A DNA stretch of 64,000 bases, taken from positions 496,001-560,000 of the forward strand of contig NZ_NEVM01000002.1 of NCBI RefSeq assembly GCF_002261225.1. The letters run 5' to 3'. Shown here in pieces: positions 46,788-57,572 of this stretch. The DNA is from Bordetella genomosp. 10. Lineage in GTDB: Bacteria > Pseudomonadota > Gammaproteobacteria > Burkholderiales > Burkholderiaceae_B. Both the position numbers and the translations under genes were made by a program. The notes beneath the pieces were generated by a model. That model was given only the letters and a program-made list of their open reading frames with translations, had not been told where the DNA came from and searched no databases. The stretch's first letter is position 1. Each line of letters starts with the position of its first letter.

Positions 46788-48161
46788 TTATTGCCGGCCG
46801 ATACGGGCAAGCAGGTCCAGCACCGGCGTCCACGAAGGCAGGGTTTCCAGCCGCTCGACCTGTTCGATCAGGCTGGCCGCCTCCTCCGCGGCCAGTCCGC
46901 CGGTGACCAGGCAATCGCGCACCTTGTCGTGGCGCTGCGCGCGGCTCATCGGCCGTTCCGGGCAGCCGGGGAAGCGGTCGCAGCGCTCGATCAGCTCCGT
47001 GCCGTCGGCCAGCTTCACGGTCACCCGCGTCCACATCGCGTCCAGCGTCTGCGGGATCTCGCGGTTGTGGACCAGACGCACCCGCGGCAGCAGACGCTGG
47101 ACGGGTTCGCTGAACGCGGTGTCGCCGTCGAAGGTGGCGATGACGACTTCCTCCTGGCTCAGGCCCACCGCCGCGGCGTACTCGTAGCTGAACTTGCCGT
47201 CCAGGCCGGAGACCGGCTTGGGCCGCGACAGCGTGGTGCGGTAGACGGGCGGCTCGACGATCACTTCCGCCACCGCGTCCAGGCTGAATTTCGGGTTGTC
47301 GCGCATCTGCCGGCAGGCCTCGATGACCCACTGCATGTAGATCTCGGCGGGGTAGCGCTTGATCGTGAAGCCCGGCCGGACGATGGCGTAGTCCTCCAGG
47401 CCGTCCAGCACCTCCGTGGGACGGAAACGCTCGTCGAAGAAGGTCTCGAAGTGGCCGCCGGGCATTTCCAGGATGCGCGGGTTGCCGGACATTCCGCGGG
47501 CGGCCAGCAGGGCCGATTCGACGCCCGAGCGCGCCGCGTTGCCGGGGTGCGTGGGCTTGGCCATGCTGCCGTTGTTGGCGAACAGGCCGCCGGTGCGCGA
47601 TGCGGCCAGGCCGATGGCGCCCGCCACCTGGTCGGCCGACAGGCCCAGTATCACCGAGCATGCCGCCACCGCGCCCAGCGGGCCGACGACGCCCGGCGGG
47701 TGAAAGCCGCGGAAGCTGCTGTCGCGGGCGGCGGTGCGCACCCGTTGCTGGATCTGCCAGCCGACGACGAAGGCCAGGACGGCCCGCTCGGGGGCCACGG
47801 CATAGCGTTCGGAAAGCGCCAGCACCCCGGGCAGGATGGAGGAGGTGCCGTGCGCGGGCGGCATGCCTTGCACTTCGAAGTCCAGCGCGTGCAGCGATAT
47901 GCCGTTCAACAGGGCCGCGGTCGCGGGGCTGGCGGGGACCGCTGTGCCGATCACGGTGCAGGGGCCGGAGGGGTCGTCGCCCAGCGCGGCGCGGGCGATG
48001 CCGGGCGCGGGCTCGCGGCTGCCCGCCGCCAGGCAGCCCAGGCCGTCGAGTATCGCCACCTTGGCGGCCTCCACGGCCTCGGGCGGCAGGGTCTTGAAGT
48101 CGGCCTCGGCGATGTAGGCCGCGAGGCCGCGCGTAACCGGAAGGTCGTGGTCGTAGGGCAT
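46788..48161 (-). CDS. MmgE/PrpD family protein
   Basis: This 457-residue MmgE/PrpD-fold dehydratase/isomerase has DGLGCLAAGSREPAPG near residue 31, LNGISLHALDFEVQGMPPAHGTSS near residue 77, and FTIKRYPAEIYMQWVIEA. The HALDF(E) motif is the usual HxxDFDD region, here less conserved than in the paralogue. It begins 3 bases after the stop of the other PrpD gene. Substrate probably a hydroxylated di- or tricarboxylate. Confidence 0.9.
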   Translation of the reverse strand: MPYDHDLPVTRGLAAYIAEADFKTLPPEAVEAAKVAILDGLGCLAAGSREPAPGIARAALGDDPSGPCTVIGTAVPASPATAALLNGISLHALDFEVQGMPPAHGTSSILPGVLALSERYAVAPERAVLAFVVGWQIQQRVRTAARDSSFRGFHPPGVVGPLGAVAACSVILGLSADQVAGAIGLAASRTGGLFANNGSMAKPTHPGNAARSGVESALLAARGMSGNPRILEMPGGHFETFFDERFRPTEVLDGLEDYAIVRPGFTIKRYPAEIYMQWVIEACRQMRDNPKFSLDAVAEVIVEPPVYRTTLSRPKPVSGLDGKFSYEYAAAVGLSQEEVVIATFDGDTAFSEPVQRLLPRVRLVHNREIPQTLDAMWTRVTVKLADGTELIERCDRFPGCPERPMSRAQRHDKVRDCLVTGGLAAEEAASLIEQVERLETLPSWTPVLDLLARIGRQ

Positions 48162-48164
48162 CGC

Positions 48165-49532
48165 TTACTCGGTGGCCAGTTGCTCGAACACCTGGGCGCA
48201 GTCGCGGCTATCGGCGATGGCCCAGGCTTGGTCGAAAACCTTGTCCGTGTCCGCGCCCAGCGCCGGCTGCACCAGATGCCGGAACTTGATCCTGATGTCC
48301 TCGCGGTTCATGGGATTCCGGTAGGTGCCCTTGGGATTGGCGGCGTGCACCTTCCGCGTGGTGCCGTCGGCCAGTTTCACCGTCGCGCGGATCTGGATGA
48401 TGCCGGGCCATTCGGCCTCGATCTGCTCGTCGACCGCCACCGAGATCTTCTGCATCATCTGGCGCACCTTCGGACTGGACAGCGCCTCGTCGGTGTAGGC
48501 GGCCAGCGTCACGTCGCCCTCCAGCAGCGCGACCGCGACGACGTAGGGCAGGCTATGGTCGGCGGTCTCGCGCGTCGTGGGCGCCCACTTGGCCGGCTCG
48601 CTGCCGGATTCGTGCCGCAGGAAGCGCGAGGTATGCAACACCACCTCTTGTACTTCATCGAGGTCCAGTCCTTCGCGCAGCTTCAGGGCGGCCCAGATCC
48701 CGATCTGGCAGTTGGCCGTCGCCGGAAAATACTTCAGGCCCGAGCGCAGCACGGCCCACTCGCCGAACGGTTCCAGGTTCATCGGGCCGGCCTTGCCCTC
48801 CATGACCTCGATGAAGCCATGCCGTCCTTCGAAGGGATCCGAGGGACCCGTCAGGCCGTTCTCGGCGAGCTGGCAGGCGAAGACAGCCTGCCGGGTGCTT
48901 ACGGCCGTGGCCACGCCCTTGTAATGGGACAGTTCGCCGGAACGGCTGGCCCGCAGCGGCAGTCCGTTGGTCGCGGCCAGGGAGACGGCGGTGCGGATGC
49001 GGTCGCGATCGTAGCCGAGCATGTGCGCGATGCCGGCGGCCGCCCCGATCGCCACGGCGAAGCCCTGGTCGATCGAAAGGTAGTCGACCAGCGCGCCATG
49101 GTCCTTGCGGTAGGACCGGTGCCGCAGCGAGATACGGTGGAAAATCTCGTAGGACACGGCGATGCCGCTCAGCAGGGTGCGGCCGGGCAGGTGGCGGGCG
49201 CCGGCCACCGCGATGAGCGCGCCCAGGATGTCGCTGGGGTGGCCGCCGGTGAAGGTGTCGTTGTAGTCGAGGTAACGGATCATCGACGTGTTCCAGAACG
49301 CCGCCATGCCCAGCGTGGCGACGGCGGTGCTGCCGATGACCGTGCCGCCCGCGTCGCGGGGCAGGTCGGGAACGGCCGCCGCCGCGCGCGCGCCGGGGCA
49401 GTCCCGCGACGCCATCGCGCAGGCGAGGGTATCCACCAGGACGCCGGTGACGTGCTCGATCACGTCGGCGGGAAGATCCTCGGGCCGCACGCTGGCGGTG
49501 AAGTCGGTGATTTGCTCAAGTGCCTGGTCCAT
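48165..49532 (-). CDS. MmgE/PrpD family protein
   Basis: This 455-residue paralogue has WNTSMIRYLDYNDTFTGGHPSD near residue 80, which fits the canonical active-site loop of the family, and FPATANCQIGIWAALKL. It is the first gene of a minus-strand operon with another PrpD-family gene and a Bug gene. Two tandem PrpD homologues may form heteromers or act on successive substrates. The only upstream gene, the ATPase-AlbA gene, is divergent and unrelated. Confidence 0.9.
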   Translation of the reverse strand: MDQALEQITDFTASVRPEDLPADVIEHVTGVLVDTLACAMASRDCPGARAAAAVPDLPRDAGGTVIGSTAVATLGMAAFWNTSMIRYLDYNDTFTGGHPSDILGALIAVAGARHLPGRTLLSGIAVSYEIFHRISLRHRSYRKDHGALVDYLSIDQGFAVAIGAAAGIAHMLGYDRDRIRTAVSLAATNGLPLRASRSGELSHYKGVATAVSTRQAVFACQLAENGLTGPSDPFEGRHGFIEVMEGKAGPMNLEPFGEWAVLRSGLKYFPATANCQIGIWAALKLREGLDLDEVQEVVLHTSRFLRHESGSEPAKWAPTTRETADHSLPYVVAVALLEGDVTLAAYTDEALSSPKVRQMMQKISVAVDEQIEAEWPGIIQIRATVKLADGTTRKVHAANPKGTYRNPMNREDIRIKFRHLVQPALGADTDKVFDQAWAIADSRDCAQVFEQLATE

Positions 49533-49741
49533 CGTGTCTGTGTCCTCTGCGTTCCTTCGGTGCGCGAGCCTGGCGTCGCATGCCCGTTGTCGTTATGCCC
49601 CGCGTCGCGGGTTGCTGATCTGGTTTCGTAGAATAGAGTCGCGTTCGTCTCCCCGTCACCGGCAGATTTCCATTTAGTGGAAATTTAGAGGCTTTCGGGG
49701 CACGCAGGTGTTGAACGAATCGACTCAAACGGTAGGGCTTG

Positions 49742-51040
49742 ATGTACTTCACCAAGATCAGACTTGAAAACTTTGGTCCATTCGCCGGCGCGGAATTTCA
49801 TTTCGAGCCTCGCGCGGTCAACCGGTTTGTCGGGAACAATGGCGCGGGAAAAACGCAGATGGCGGGTGCGATTCTCGCCTCCATCGTTGGGAAACCCGCC
49901 ATCTCGATCACGGAGGGCGGCGCCAGTCCATCCGTGGTGGAAGTAACGATGGAAGACGGCGCAAGCGTCGAGACGGCAAATCTATGGATCGCCGAAGACG
50001 TTCGGGGCAAGCCGGATGTGGCGAAAACGACGGGGCCGCTGGCTCTCCGGGTTCTCGCAACGTTGTCCGAGCCGGAAGGCCAACGCCTATTGCTTGGCGA
50101 TGAGCGGCCTGGCGATATCGATTCGCTATATCCCGGGGATGTGGAGCAAGTCATCCTCGCAACAATCAAGGACGAGCCGCTATGGGGGGAACTTCGACAA
50201 AAGGGCGTGTTTGAGCGGAGCGTCGGTTCCACGGGGGAAAGTTCGGTACGAGCATTGATGTGGCAACTCGTCGTTCGACGGCGTGCTCAATTCAAATTGC
50301 CACTTATCGTTGACGGTTGGGCCAGGTTTTGGTCGCAAGACTTGCTGCCTCTGGTTTACCGATTGCTCCGGGAGATCGCCAAGGACTCACAGGTAATTGT
50401 GTTAGGCACCCACGGCGCAGGCTACGGAGATGATCCTGTCCAGATCATTTCAGCAAATCGAAGCGGACGTTCCCTGGTCGCATACGATCAACGGTTCCAG
50501 ACACGCACGCCCAACCCGCGACAGCCCCATCGATCAAAATGGATCAGGGGAACGAAATACCCTGCACAGGAAAGTCGAGCGTGCGAGTTCAAGGAAGTGA
50601 AAGGCACGAATCCCCTCGGCGCGATCAAGGGCGCCGTTGACCAGTACGTAGTGGCTTTCCTGAATGCTGGGCTCTCACAAGAGGGCGCAATTTTCTGGGG
50701 AATCCGTGACGAAGATCGTTCCATCGTCGGCGTTCGCCTTCTTCCGCAGGAGTGTGACGAACTCCGGCGCATCGTCACAGAGCGCTTGCATCAGATCGTC
50801 CCTCCGATTGCTCCAACAGCCTACCGGATCGATCTCCATCCGGTGAGAGACCGGGAAACGCCGATCGACGACATGTATGTCGTTGAAGTTCGTGTTCCAT
50901 CGGTCAGGCGCACATTGCTTTTTGCGACTGGTGGACAGGAGGTATACGTCAAGACGGATGCGGGTAAGAGGAAGCTGTCTCCGCTGGAGCTTCAACAAGA
51001 GCTGATTCGGCGGCTGGGCATCGATCCCCATCCGGCTTGA
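49742..51040 (+). CDS. ABC/SMC-type ATPase fused to a Schlafen AlbA_2-like domain
   Basis: This 432-residue protein begins YFTKIRLENFGPF, as in RecF/SMC-type ATPases. Walker A is GNNGAGKT at residues 31-38. A signature-like STGESS lies near residue 162, Walker B is PLIVDG with Asp191, and an H-loop THG has its His at 224. The coiled-coil insertion of SMC/OLD proteins is missing, so this is a compact head domain. From residue ~277 (ESRACEFKEVKG, GAIFWGIRDEDRSIVGVRL) the sequence resembles AlbA_2/Schlafen domains found in RNA-cleaving immune proteins. Base composition is visibly lower in G+C than neighbours (30 of 60 bases in 50281-50340). It stands alone between unrelated genes, and a TTG at 49739 directly precedes the ATG. 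A defence-type ATPase-effector fusion is likely; no partner gene is seen. Confidence 0.8.
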   Translation: MYFTKIRLENFGPFAGAEFHFEPRAVNRFVGNNGAGKTQMAGAILASIVGKPAISITEGGASPSVVEVTMEDGASVETANLWIAEDVRGKPDVAKTTGPLALRVLATLSEPEGQRLLLGDERPGDIDSLYPGDVEQVILATIKDEPLWGELRQKGVFERSVGSTGESSVRALMWQLVVRRRAQFKLPLIVDGWARFWSQDLLPLVYRLLREIAKDSQVIVLGTHGAGYGDDPVQIISANRSGRSLVAYDQRFQTRTPNPRQPHRSKWIRGTKYPAQESRACEFKEVKGTNPLGAIKGAVDQYVVAFLNAGLSQEGAIFWGIRDEDRSIVGVRLLPQECDELRRIVTERLHQIVPPIAPTAYRIDLHPVRDRETPIDDMYVVEVRVPSVRRTLLFATGGQEVYVKTDAGKRKLSPLELQQELIRRLGIDPHPA

Positions 51041-51104
51041 ATGAGCCGGTGGGCATAGGGTAGGGTTGGCCGTGCAGTTGCTTTACGGGGCGGCGCTTCG
51101 TAGC

Positions 51105-52280
51105 CTAGGCCAACGCCGCCGCGGCTTCCAGCTCGGACTTCAGCCCGCTGAGGAAATAGCGGCGCAGCAGCATGCGCGGCAGGGCGCGCATGGCGGCGTT
51201 GCGCAGCGCGAAGCTCCACGCCGCGGCAGGCACGTAGACGGGCGCGAGCTTGCGGCTGCGTTGTTGCAGGCGCTGGACGATGGGGCGCAGTCTCCTGTCG
51301 TGCGCGAGCAGGGCCTGGCTGACGGGCTGCCGGCCCAGTTCCTGGGCCAGCACGGCGGCCGAGGCCATGGCCATGCCGGCGCCCTGGCCGGAGATGAGCG
51401 ACAGGCCGTGCGCGGCGTCGCCCAGCAGCACGATGCGGCCGCGATGCCAGGTCGGCATGTCTATCATGGCCAGGTCGTCCAGGGCGATCGGCGCATCGGC
51501 GGGCAGGTGGCGCAGGATGCGCATGGCTTCCGGATGGGTGCGCGCCGCGACTTCCGCGACGAGCGCATGGCGCGCGGCCGACGGCACGGCGCCATGTTCG
51601 TGGCTGCGCCAGACATGCAGGGCCGCCAGCCGGCCGCCCCCCAGCCCGTGGTACTCGACCTGTTGTCCGACGGCGGCGTAGGACACGAAGTCATGGCTCA
51701 GGCCGATGGCGTCCTCGACGTCGTAGGCAGCGTAGCGGTAGCCCAGTTGCTCAACGCGGCGCGCGCCGTCGTCGGCCCCGAACACCTGTTCGCGCAACGC
51801 CGAATGCACGCCGTCGGCGCCCACCAGCAGGTCGGCGCGCAGCATCCGCCCATCGGACAGGGTGACGTCGACGCCCAGGCTGTCGGCCCGACAGGCGGCG
51901 ACGGTCATGCCCAGCCGCATGTCGCAGCGGTCGCGCACGACGTCGTACAGGACGCTTACCAGGTCGGTGCGCTTGAGCGTGATCCATTCGATTTGCTTGA
52001 GCAGTTCGCGGTAGCGGATACGCATCAGTTCGCGGCCGCGCCGGTCGCGGTAGACGTTTTCGCCGATCTCGCGCTCGACGGCGCGCAGCGCCGGCACCAG
52101 TCCCATGCGGCGGGCGGTATAGAGGCCCGGGCCCGACAGCCCCATCATGTAGCCGCCGTCCCGCAGATGCGTGGCGCGTTCGGCCAGGACGACGCGCCAG
52201 CCGGCTTGCGACAGCCACCAGGCGCTGGACAGGCCGGCCACGCCGGCGCCGGCGATCACTGCCAGGGGAGAAGGATTCAT
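51105..52280 (-). CDS. FAD-dependent monooxygenase
   Basis: This 391-residue group A flavin monooxygenase has the FAD motif GAGVAGLSSAWWLSQAG at residues ~9-25, the DG motif LVGADGVHSALREQV near residue 160, and the GD motif LLGDAAHGLSLISGQGAGMAM near residue 283. It begins with a 4-base overlap (ATGA) with the MFS gene and is third in a TonB receptor / MFS operon. A role in oxidising or opening an imported siderophore, or in making it, is suggested by context. The substrate cannot be read from sequence. Confidence 0.88.
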   Translation of the reverse strand: MNPSPLAVIAGAGVAGLSSAWWLSQAGWRVVLAERATHLRDGGYMMGLSGPGLYTARRMGLVPALRAVEREIGENVYRDRRGRELMRIRYRELLKQIEWITLKRTDLVSVLYDVVRDRCDMRLGMTVAACRADSLGVDVTLSDGRMLRADLLVGADGVHSALREQVFGADDGARRVEQLGYRYAAYDVEDAIGLSHDFVSYAAVGQQVEYHGLGGGRLAALHVWRSHEHGAVPSAARHALVAEVAARTHPEAMRILRHLPADAPIALDDLAMIDMPTWHRGRIVLLGDAAHGLSLISGQGAGMAMASAAVLAQELGRQPVSQALLAHDRRLRPIVQRLQQRSRKLAPVYVPAAAWSFALRNAAMRALPRMLLRRYFLSGLKSELEAAAALA

Positions 52281-56829: not shown

Positions 56830-57186
56830 ATGGTTCACGGACACGAAGCGGGTTGCCGGCATGACTTGCAGGGTACGCAAAGCCTGGGTTGGCGGGCGGC
56901 CGAGCTCGATATCGCCGCGGCGATGTGCCATGCCTTGAGCGATCCGGCGCGATTGCGGCTATTGCTGTGGCTGGCTGAGCGCGAAATGTGCGTGTCCGAA
57001 CTCGTCGAACTCGAGCAGGCCAAGGTCAGCAGCATTTCCGCGCGCTTGCAGATGCTGCATGCGGCTCGCCTGGTGATCAGGCGCCGCGAGGCCAAACATA
57101 TCTACTACGCGCTCGCCGACGAGCACGTCCACGCCCTGTTGCGCAACATCCTCGGCCATGCGGCCGAAGTCCCGGCAGGTCGCTAA
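56830..57186 (+). CDS. ArsR/SmtB family metal-sensing repressor
   Basis: This 118-residue winged-helix repressor (HALSDPARLRLLLWLAEREMCVSELVEL, SSISARLQMLHAARLV) carries a C-terminal helix with Asp97, His99, His110 and Glu113. That is the exact D-x-H-(10)-H-x2-E spacing of the alpha5 zinc site of SmtB. Zinc (or cobalt) sensing is therefore likely. There is no alpha3N Cys motif. It is followed after 32 bases by a histidine-rich protein, so the pair forms a metal-regulated module. It probably binds the palindrome just upstream. Confidence 0.88.
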   Translation: MVHGHEAGCRHDLQGTQSLGWRAAELDIAAAMCHALSDPARLRLLLWLAEREMCVSELVELEQAKVSSISARLQMLHAARLVIRRREAKHIYYALADEHVHALLRNILGHAAEVPAGR

Positions 57187-57218: not shown

Positions 57219-57572
57219 ATGTCCACCTGCAACCAACCCCACCACGCCAATCATGACCACCAGCATGGCCCGAATTGCGGCCACATCGCCATTCGCCACG
57301 AAGGCCACGTGGACTACCTGCATGACGGCCATCTCCACCACCCGCACGGCTCGCACGTCGACGAGCACGTGATCGCGGTCTCCGCCACCAATCCGGACAC
57401 CTGCACGCCCAACCACCACTGCTCGGGCCATCCCGCCGGCCACGTCCACGGCCCCGGCTGCGGCCACGAAGCCGTCCCGCACGGCGACCACGTGGACTAT
57501 CTGGTCGACGGCCACCTGCACCATCCCCATGGCGACCATTGCGACAACCACGGCCCGGTCACGCTGGCGTAA
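57219..57572 (+). CDS. Histidine-rich metal-binding protein with internal duplication
   Basis: This 117-residue protein has 29 histidines and 6 cysteines. It contains a 33-residue duplication: residues 14-46 and 75-107 share H-x-HGPxCGH followed by HVDYLxDGHLHHPHG with identical spacing. There is no signal peptide or membrane segment, so it is cytoplasmic. The composition and its place behind a zinc-type ArsR repressor suggest a metal buffer or chaperone. A GGAG-like site precedes the ATG. A hairpin with a T-run follows. No family name is claimed. Confidence 0.82.
   Translation: MSTCNQPHHANHDHQHGPNCGHIAIRHEGHVDYLHDGHLHHPHGSHVDEHVIAVSATNPDTCTPNHHCSGHPAGHVHGPGCGHEAVPHGDHVDYLVDGHLHHPHGDHCDNHGPVTLA

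Follow-up and report, generated by a model that had tools for sequence, protein, structure and literature searches.

A Bordetella gene joining a Rad50-like ATPase head to a Schlafen nuclease-type domain: a candidate single-gene abortive-infection system

The window analysed here, a stretch of 64,000 nucleotides from Bordetella genomosp. 10, contains a gene in which a compact ABC-type ATPase head is fused to a Schlafen AlbA_2 domain. We consider it reasonably probable that this gene is a single-gene abortive-infection system, in which the ATP-bound, Rad50-like head would restrain the Schlafen nuclease until a phage-derived signal leads to cleavage of tRNA and a stop of translation. A role as a one-gene alarm is likely because the gene stands alone and looks foreign, its nuclease-type domain has the active-site residues of RNA-cutting Schlafens, and several of its relatives lie beside phage-defence genes. 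We infer that the nuclease would be active, that the head would gate it and that phage infection would be the trigger; tRNA as the substrate is suggested by analogy with SLFN11/13 and SAMD9. The positions of the gene, its domains and its motifs are given in Table 1.

Table 1. Features of the fusion gene and of the segment that carries it (positions in the window; residues refer to the encoded protein)
Feature	Position	Strand	Remarks
Unmatched insert segment with the fusion gene	49686..51101		blastn: lies between two flanks conserved elsewhere
ABC-head/Schlafen AlbA_2 fusion gene, 432 aa	49742..51040	+	ATG at 49742, stop ends at 51040; Pfam AAA_23 and SLFN_AlbA_2
Rad50/SMC-like ATPase head, residues 1-243	49742..50470	+	
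Walker A GNNGAGKT, residues 31-38	49832..49855	+	G31, G36 and K37 in 90/90 aligned relatives
ABC-signature-like STGESS, residues 163-168	50228..50245	+	S163 in 90/90, G165 in 71/90, remainder variable
Walker B PLIVDG, residues 187-192	50300..50317	+	P187 in 90/90, D191 in 86/90; Gly at the catalytic Glu position
Schlafen AlbA_2 nuclease-type domain, residues 259-426	50516..51019	+	
E277-x4-E282-x-K284 active-site motif	50570..50593	+	Invariant in 90/90; aligns with SLFN11 ES....EFK

The first-pass annotation had described the protein as a compact ABC/SMC-type ATPase fused to an AlbA_2/Schlafen-like domain, and both the Pfam domains and the predicted folds agree with this description. In a structure comparison of the predicted fold, the head was closest to Rad50/SMC, and it combines this fold with the Walker A motif, the signature serine and the Walker B aspartate of Rad50/SMC/RecF-type ABC heads. 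The coiled-coil insert proper to Rad50/SMC is absent, as had been noted before: the 432-aa model has no long helices between the two head halves. The C-terminal half might have belonged to a non-Schlafen family, but the Pfam, alignment and structure comparisons returned a Schlafen match instead. It passed the gathering score of SLFN_AlbA_2 (PF04326) with 54.6 bits against 25.3 over residues 277-412, its nuclease stretch aligned with the ES....EFK of two SLFN11 chains and of 5yd0 (titled Schlafen 13), and the full-length structural matches of the AlbA_2 domain include the SAMD9 tRNase domain 9o0d. No HEPN-type ACNase family was found in the protein by the Pfam and NCBIfam scans, the C-terminal domain being AlbA_2, and no Toprim family by the Pfam scan. 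The PADLOC 2023 library matches of the query (best 25 of 51) and of seven ATPase-type relatives cover the ATPase half only. Annotation with that library would therefore overlook these genes as a system.

We then compared the two halves for conservation, using 90 of 110 homologues; the 20 left out of the alignment are fragments and the kinase and methyltransferase fusions. Apart from the invariant Walker A residues, Q39 was found in 89 of the 90 sequences. Residue 192, the position of the ABC catalytic glutamate, is Asp in 37, Glu in 31 and Gly in 13 of them, and Gly in the window protein, whereas the H-loop histidine at position 224 is present in the window protein, yet in only 14 of its 90 relatives. 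The full ABC catalytic set of Walker B glutamate and H-loop is thus incomplete in the window protein. From the list of ATPase motifs proposed at first, Walker A, the signature serine and the Walker B aspartate have stood, while the H-loop is not a feature of the family and the Walker B glutamate position holds a glycine. This glycine points to a head that works as an ATP-binding switch or dimerisation clamp rather than as a fast motor. Judged by its residues, the head is built for nucleotide binding and, in the window protein, is probably a slow or non-hydrolysing switch.

AlbA_2 domains are often regarded as DNA- or RNA-binding only. In the fusion family, E277, E282 and K284, the residues that characterise RNA-cutting Schlafens, are kept in every one of the 90 aligned relatives, and D323, which matches the third carboxylate, is Asp in 78 and Asn in 12. 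Mean majority-residue share is 0.73 for residues 266-432 as compared with 0.37-0.60 for blocks of residues 1-245. Conservation is thus higher in the nuclease half than in the head, the pattern expected if the target stays fixed while the trigger changes. According to the available excerpts of a study on SLFN11, its residues E209, E214 and K216, which correspond to E277, E282 and K284, are essential for tRNA cleavage, the exchange D252A, at the counterpart of D323, is not harmful, and nuclease activity is deficient in Schlafens, SLFN5 among them, in which one of the three essential positions is missing (PMC9482658). Likewise, the E205A and E210A variants of SLFN13 are inactive in the accessible portion of the corresponding report (PMC5862951).

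The fusion gene had also been suspected to be a recent acquisition, which is supported by base composition and a break in synteny. Its GC3 is 0.62 as compared with 0.78-0.92 in seven neighbours, and it is the lowest-G+C stretch of the window. In blastn comparisons, the left flank (45.8-49.6 kb) matches several relatives at 80-85% identity, with homology stopping at 49532-49685, and the right flank (51.1-56.7 kb) is ~72-76% identical to other relatives, with homology starting at 51102-51114. The 1.4-1.5 kb in between, containing the fusion gene, matches neither set of relatives. Both flanks were found in one genome, G509, where they are located on different contigs, which puts the fusion gene at a synteny breakpoint. 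No clean empty site was shown among the relatives with either flank. Taken together, the fusion gene has been inserted on its own where synteny breaks.

The surroundings of this insert were characterised by Pfam for ten neighbouring window proteins, nine of which gave matches: a D-glutamate cyclase-like protein, two TctC receptors, two MmgE/PrpD proteins, an FAD monooxygenase, an MFS transporter, a TonB receptor and an AraC regulator. Nearest to the fusion gene are MmgE/PrpD and FAD monooxygenase genes. No defence gene, restriction-modification (R-M) family, Toprim or LmuA/LmuB was found among these ten proteins. A tandem MmgE/PrpD pair and a TctC-type receptor gene (46788-49532, minus strand) belong to a conserved locus whose end coincides with the start of the insert. 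Further downstream, a protein without a Pfam match encoded at 57219-57572 (plus strand) is small and His-rich, with a repeated HVDYL-x-DGHLHHPHG unit recognised by eye, and probably binds metal; a small ORF that looks ArsR-like by eye (56830-57186) is located just upstream of it.

A protein search at E<=1e-3 returned 110 homologues, query included. By their listed Pfam domains, the ATPase domain is combined with the Schlafen domain in 89 of them, 13 consist of the Schlafen domain alone, and eight (seven kinases and one methyltransferase) share the Schlafen half only. Named homologues are mostly from Burkholderiales, with others from Stenotrophomonas, Steroidobacter and Longimicrobium. A scan of the order of genome G001 gave one positive among 399 genomes, which is G001 itself, and five genus or family scans gave 1/144, 2/60, 1/233, 1/298 and 1/101, that is 6/836 genomes, all of them previously known copies; these counts are lower bounds, since in every scan part of each genome's first-look candidates was scored. 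The fusion family is sporadic but coherent, and the genome scans suggest that it is very sporadic. Among 50,697 phage records, no homologue of the fusion protein was detected, and 72,556 plasmid records contained one partial match, to the Schlafen part only. One of the genomic copies, at locus L002, is also found within an IMG/VR record (L019). In Variovorax gossypii, the copy located near Lamassu (L011:9951-11317) is interrupted by two stop codons, which indicates that some copies are being lost.

We next investigated the genomic neighbourhoods of these relatives at 18 genome loci. Eleven of them are of the ATPase type (L001-L007, L009, L010, L011 and L017); L008 and L018, which are partial matches only, and L012-L016, which have other arrangements, were kept outside this count. 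Neighbours were picked by hand, mostly the larger ORFs near the gene, and for the ATPase-type loci 20 of them were compared with Pfam, 20 with PADLOC and nine with PHROGs; a further scan covered eight neighbours at non-ATPase loci, one at L010 and one Schlafen-containing ORF. The first-pass annotation had proposed to look for the fusion near known defence genes and had named a housekeeping context of homologues as an argument against a defence role. Among the neighbours scanned, 6 of the 11 ATPase-type loci gave a PADLOC match to a known or candidate defence gene (E<=1e-10, within 10 kb), although the neighbours scanned in the window itself are not defence genes. Lamassu LmuA/LmuB genes are present at L004 (Cupriavidus pampae), L007 (Pseudomonas simiae), L011 (Variovorax gossypii) and L017 (Rhodanobacter thiooxydans). 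Neighbours matched PDC-S32/AbiJ_NTD4 and Aga_HEPN/PD-Lambda-3_B at L003 and PDC-S39 at L009, and a weak PRTase-CE match was all that was seen at L005. Integrases are encoded at L002 and L006. Instead of lying in housekeeping contexts, several homologues thus adjoin Lamassu, AbiJ-like genes, other PADLOC candidates or integrases, while no defence gene was found among the neighbours scanned at four of the 11 loci (L001, L002, L006 and L010). The L004 locus of Cupriavidus pampae is a dense defence island, with Lamassu upstream of the homologue and a candidate PDC-M54A gene of 1639 aa downstream (L004:12135-17054).

The gap between the LmuB match and the fusion gene is 496 bp at L004, 235 bp at L017 and 2.7 kb at L007. 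The four Lamassu-side members are 37-59% identical to the query and are accompanied by three different best LmuB profiles, so the pairing with Lamassu probably arose more than once. In a census of 8 genomes (51.2 Mb), 3 of 11 LmuB matches were found within 5 kb of the fusion gene, as compared with 0.019 expected (Poisson 1.2e-6); these values refer to a family that was picked after Lamassu had been seen and to a lax and incomplete search, in which the L011 copy was missed and the control was matched in 13 of 14 genomes. An all-against-all blastp of naively called ORFs in 19 loci (E<=1e-6, 40% coverage) revealed no neighbour common to the loci by close homology: Aside from the duplicate pair L002/L019, there were few and weak matches of 27-34% identity among the ORFs listed around the genes. 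A part in a fixed operon was rejected for lack of a closely similar partner across the 19 loci, by a comparison that is blind to the divergent LmuB/LmuA genes at four of them. The result argues for a fusion gene that works alone, with distant partners lying outside the reach of the comparison.

The Schlafen domain is not restricted to the ATPase fusion. With the Schlafen domain taken from a kinase fusion as the query, 352 homologues were obtained at E<=1e-10, and the best 120 of the 352 were sorted by Pfam: 34 carry a protein kinase, 27 a PF01555 DNA methyltransferase, eight TPR, eight an ABC-type ATPase, five a receiver, two WD40 and one PF25199, and 35 are without another Pfam domain. The E-x4-E-x-KE motif was found in 110 of 116 module proteins checked. 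In proteins P0103-P0218, the module is located at either protein end, together with kinases, DNA methyltransferases, CheY-like receivers, TPR, WD40 or a P-loop domain. These data suggest that the Schlafen module is a wide, largely unnamed effector kit. In a quick, midpoint-rooted tree of the Schlafen domains of 157 proteins hand-picked from 218, all 73 ATPase fusions fall on one side of a branch (SH-aLRT 96), as do the kinases (99) and the TPR proteins (100), so the ABC-head fusion looks like the outcome of one founding event. The methyltransferase label changes eight times, one change being forced by well-supported branches, and receivers three times, two of them forced. This suggests that the module was repeatedly joined to other partners, with the well-supported branches on their own being compatible with a single origin of the methyltransferase fusions.

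RtcR is a regulator that controls RNA repair. At L015:8401-11401, an RtcR/PspF-type sigma-54 activator (E 1.9e-107, AAA-HTH part only) is encoded immediately upstream of a gene whose product carries the Schlafen module at its N-terminus, and in a Chloroflexi locus (L016:8927-16235) two paired type III restriction-modification genes come immediately after a Schlafen-module ORF that agrees in length and source with the methyltransferase fusion P0184. Although single cases, these neighbours support a role of the wider module in nucleic-acid conflict. One might speculate about a general alarm kit, in which the conserved Schlafen tRNase module would sit on interchangeable sensors (ABC heads, Ser/Thr kinases, DNA methyltransferases, receiver, TPR, WD40); the ABC-head branch would then be a Schlafen-armed counterpart of PrrC, found repeatedly next to Lamassu and acting as a second line once Lamassu has been overcome. 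We put this forward tentatively and with considerable doubt.

For the single gene, the preferred reading implies the following course of events, modelled on related systems. The ABC head would bind ATP and hold the Schlafen domain in an inactive or monomeric form. An infection signal, which might be a phage protein by analogy with PARIS and PrrC or a DNA end by analogy with Rad50, would shift the state of the head; the Schlafen domains would then pair and cut tRNA, translation would stop and the phage would fail, in a manner resembling the antiviral action of animal Schlafens. The protein would in this sense be the Schlafen-type equivalent of PrrC and PARIS. Pairing would have a parallel in SLFN11, whose cleavage activity requires dimerisation, as stated in the excerpts at hand (PMC9482658). 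That ABC-head proteins coupled to tRNases, namely PrrC, RloC and PARIS, are established defence designs counts in favour of abortive infection.

Three other explanations were weighed against this reading. PtuA/OLD-type heads act with DNases, and the fusion protein could likewise be a defence effector whose Schlafen domain is directed at DNA or phage mRNA rather than tRNA, by cutting or by binding, with the Rad50-like head recognising DNA ends or replication intermediates and handing them over to AlbA_2. The fold of the head, closest to Rad50/SMC, would fit such a role, as would the SAMD9 AlbA_2 domain, which was solved with DNA according to the title of 7ksp. But the spacing of the active-site motif is that of the RNA-cutting Schlafens, and the full-length match of the domain includes a tRNase, 9o0d, so that we regard a DNA- or mRNA-directed effector as unlikely. 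We hold it to be distinctly less likely still that the protein assists or backs up Lamassu-type (ABC-three-component) systems as an effector instead of being autonomous, and that the copies elsewhere are strays. Such a link would account for the four Lamassu-side loci with their different best LmuB profiles, for the gaps given above at L004, L017 and L007, and for an LmuB-profile match in the L001 genome, on the same contig and 32 kb from the fusion gene. However, no Lamassu was found among the neighbours scanned at the other 7 of the 11 loci and in the window, and the orientation varies, being divergent at L007 and L011.

A function outside defence, in which the protein would resemble RecF in repair or regulation and bind nucleic acid by its AlbA_2 domain, appears improbable to us as well. 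Among the public relatives, some bear the name RecF or RNA-binding domain protein, and RecF is the best NCBIfam match of the window protein, though at 23.2 bits it is far below the cut-off of 172. The sporadic distribution, the foreign composition, the defence and integrase neighbours of several relatives and the invariant nuclease motif all speak against such a function. Abortive infection by tRNA cleavage remains the reading that we prefer.

If it is correct, a stand-alone protein has evolved in bacteria in which an ATPase sensor of the DNA-repair kind is linked to the nuclease fold of animal antiviral Schlafen/SAMD9 proteins, and the fusion would offer a small (432 aa), testable model of an NTPase gating a Schlafen nuclease. 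It would also add a further nuclease fold to the ABC-ATPase/tRNase design, beside HEPN (PrrC), Toprim (PARIS) and HNH (retron-Eco7). Prokaryotic defence by Schlafen RNases has already been published, as the accessible part of a recent paper shows (PMC12839542). A description of the ABC-head-Schlafen fusion was not found among the matches listed in the open-access literature.

The known systems differ from the window protein in the effector, in the arrangement of the domains or in the genetic context. Lamassu LmuA/LmuB genes are missing beside the window gene (ten proteins, Pfam) and present beside 4 of 11 homologue loci. Retron Ec78 and Septu PtuA-PtuB have, in the excerpts available on them, a separate HNH nuclease, PtuB, and no Schlafen domain. 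Among the Schlafens, those associated with BREX (Schlafen - minimal histidine kinase - wHTH) are RNases that serve as a backup suicidal effector in defence loci, according to the available text of PMC12839542, which also cites a bioRxiv study reporting, by its title, bacterial Schlafens with anti-phage activity (Taboada et al.; 10.1101/2025.07.24.666596). Their accessory domains follow the Schlafen domain in that text, whereas the ABC head of the window protein comes before it, and the scanned neighbours included no BREX gene. SAMD9 is a large multidomain protein. It shares with SLFN11/13, SAMD9L and the window protein the AlbA_2 fold, and the source excerpts attribute tRNA cleavage and antiviral roles to these animal proteins; the E-x4-E-x-K motif is found in SLFN11, while the acidic residues of SAMD9 are spaced otherwise (E184, E196, E218, D241). 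SLFN11 is described there with a two-lobed core and a helicase domain, in contrast to the one AlbA_2 domain that follows the ABC head in the window protein.

An ABC sensor combined with a tRNase is also the principle of PARIS, in which, in the portion of the paper available, an ABC ATPase sensor sequesters a tRNA nuclease and is sometimes fused to it (PMC12409363). The A2 profile matches AriA weakly (E 0.005), and the PARIS nuclease AriB is of the Toprim type, unlike the Schlafen-type effector of the window protein. RloC has a coiled-coil zinc hook, which the window protein lacks, and PrrC and RloC share, as far as the excerpts describe them, a HEPN-type ACNase domain with an Arg-Glu-His triad in place of Schlafen AlbA_2. 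PrrC is tied to a type I R-M system, whereas the window gene stands alone, with no R-M family in ten neighbours (Pfam). In its overall design, PrrC nevertheless resembles the window protein: it is a compact ABC-ATPase-tRNase of 341-416 aa by the accessible text of PMC2610378, and both proteins join an N-terminal compact ABC ATPase head to a C-terminal tRNase or putative tRNase in one polypeptide of ~400 aa.
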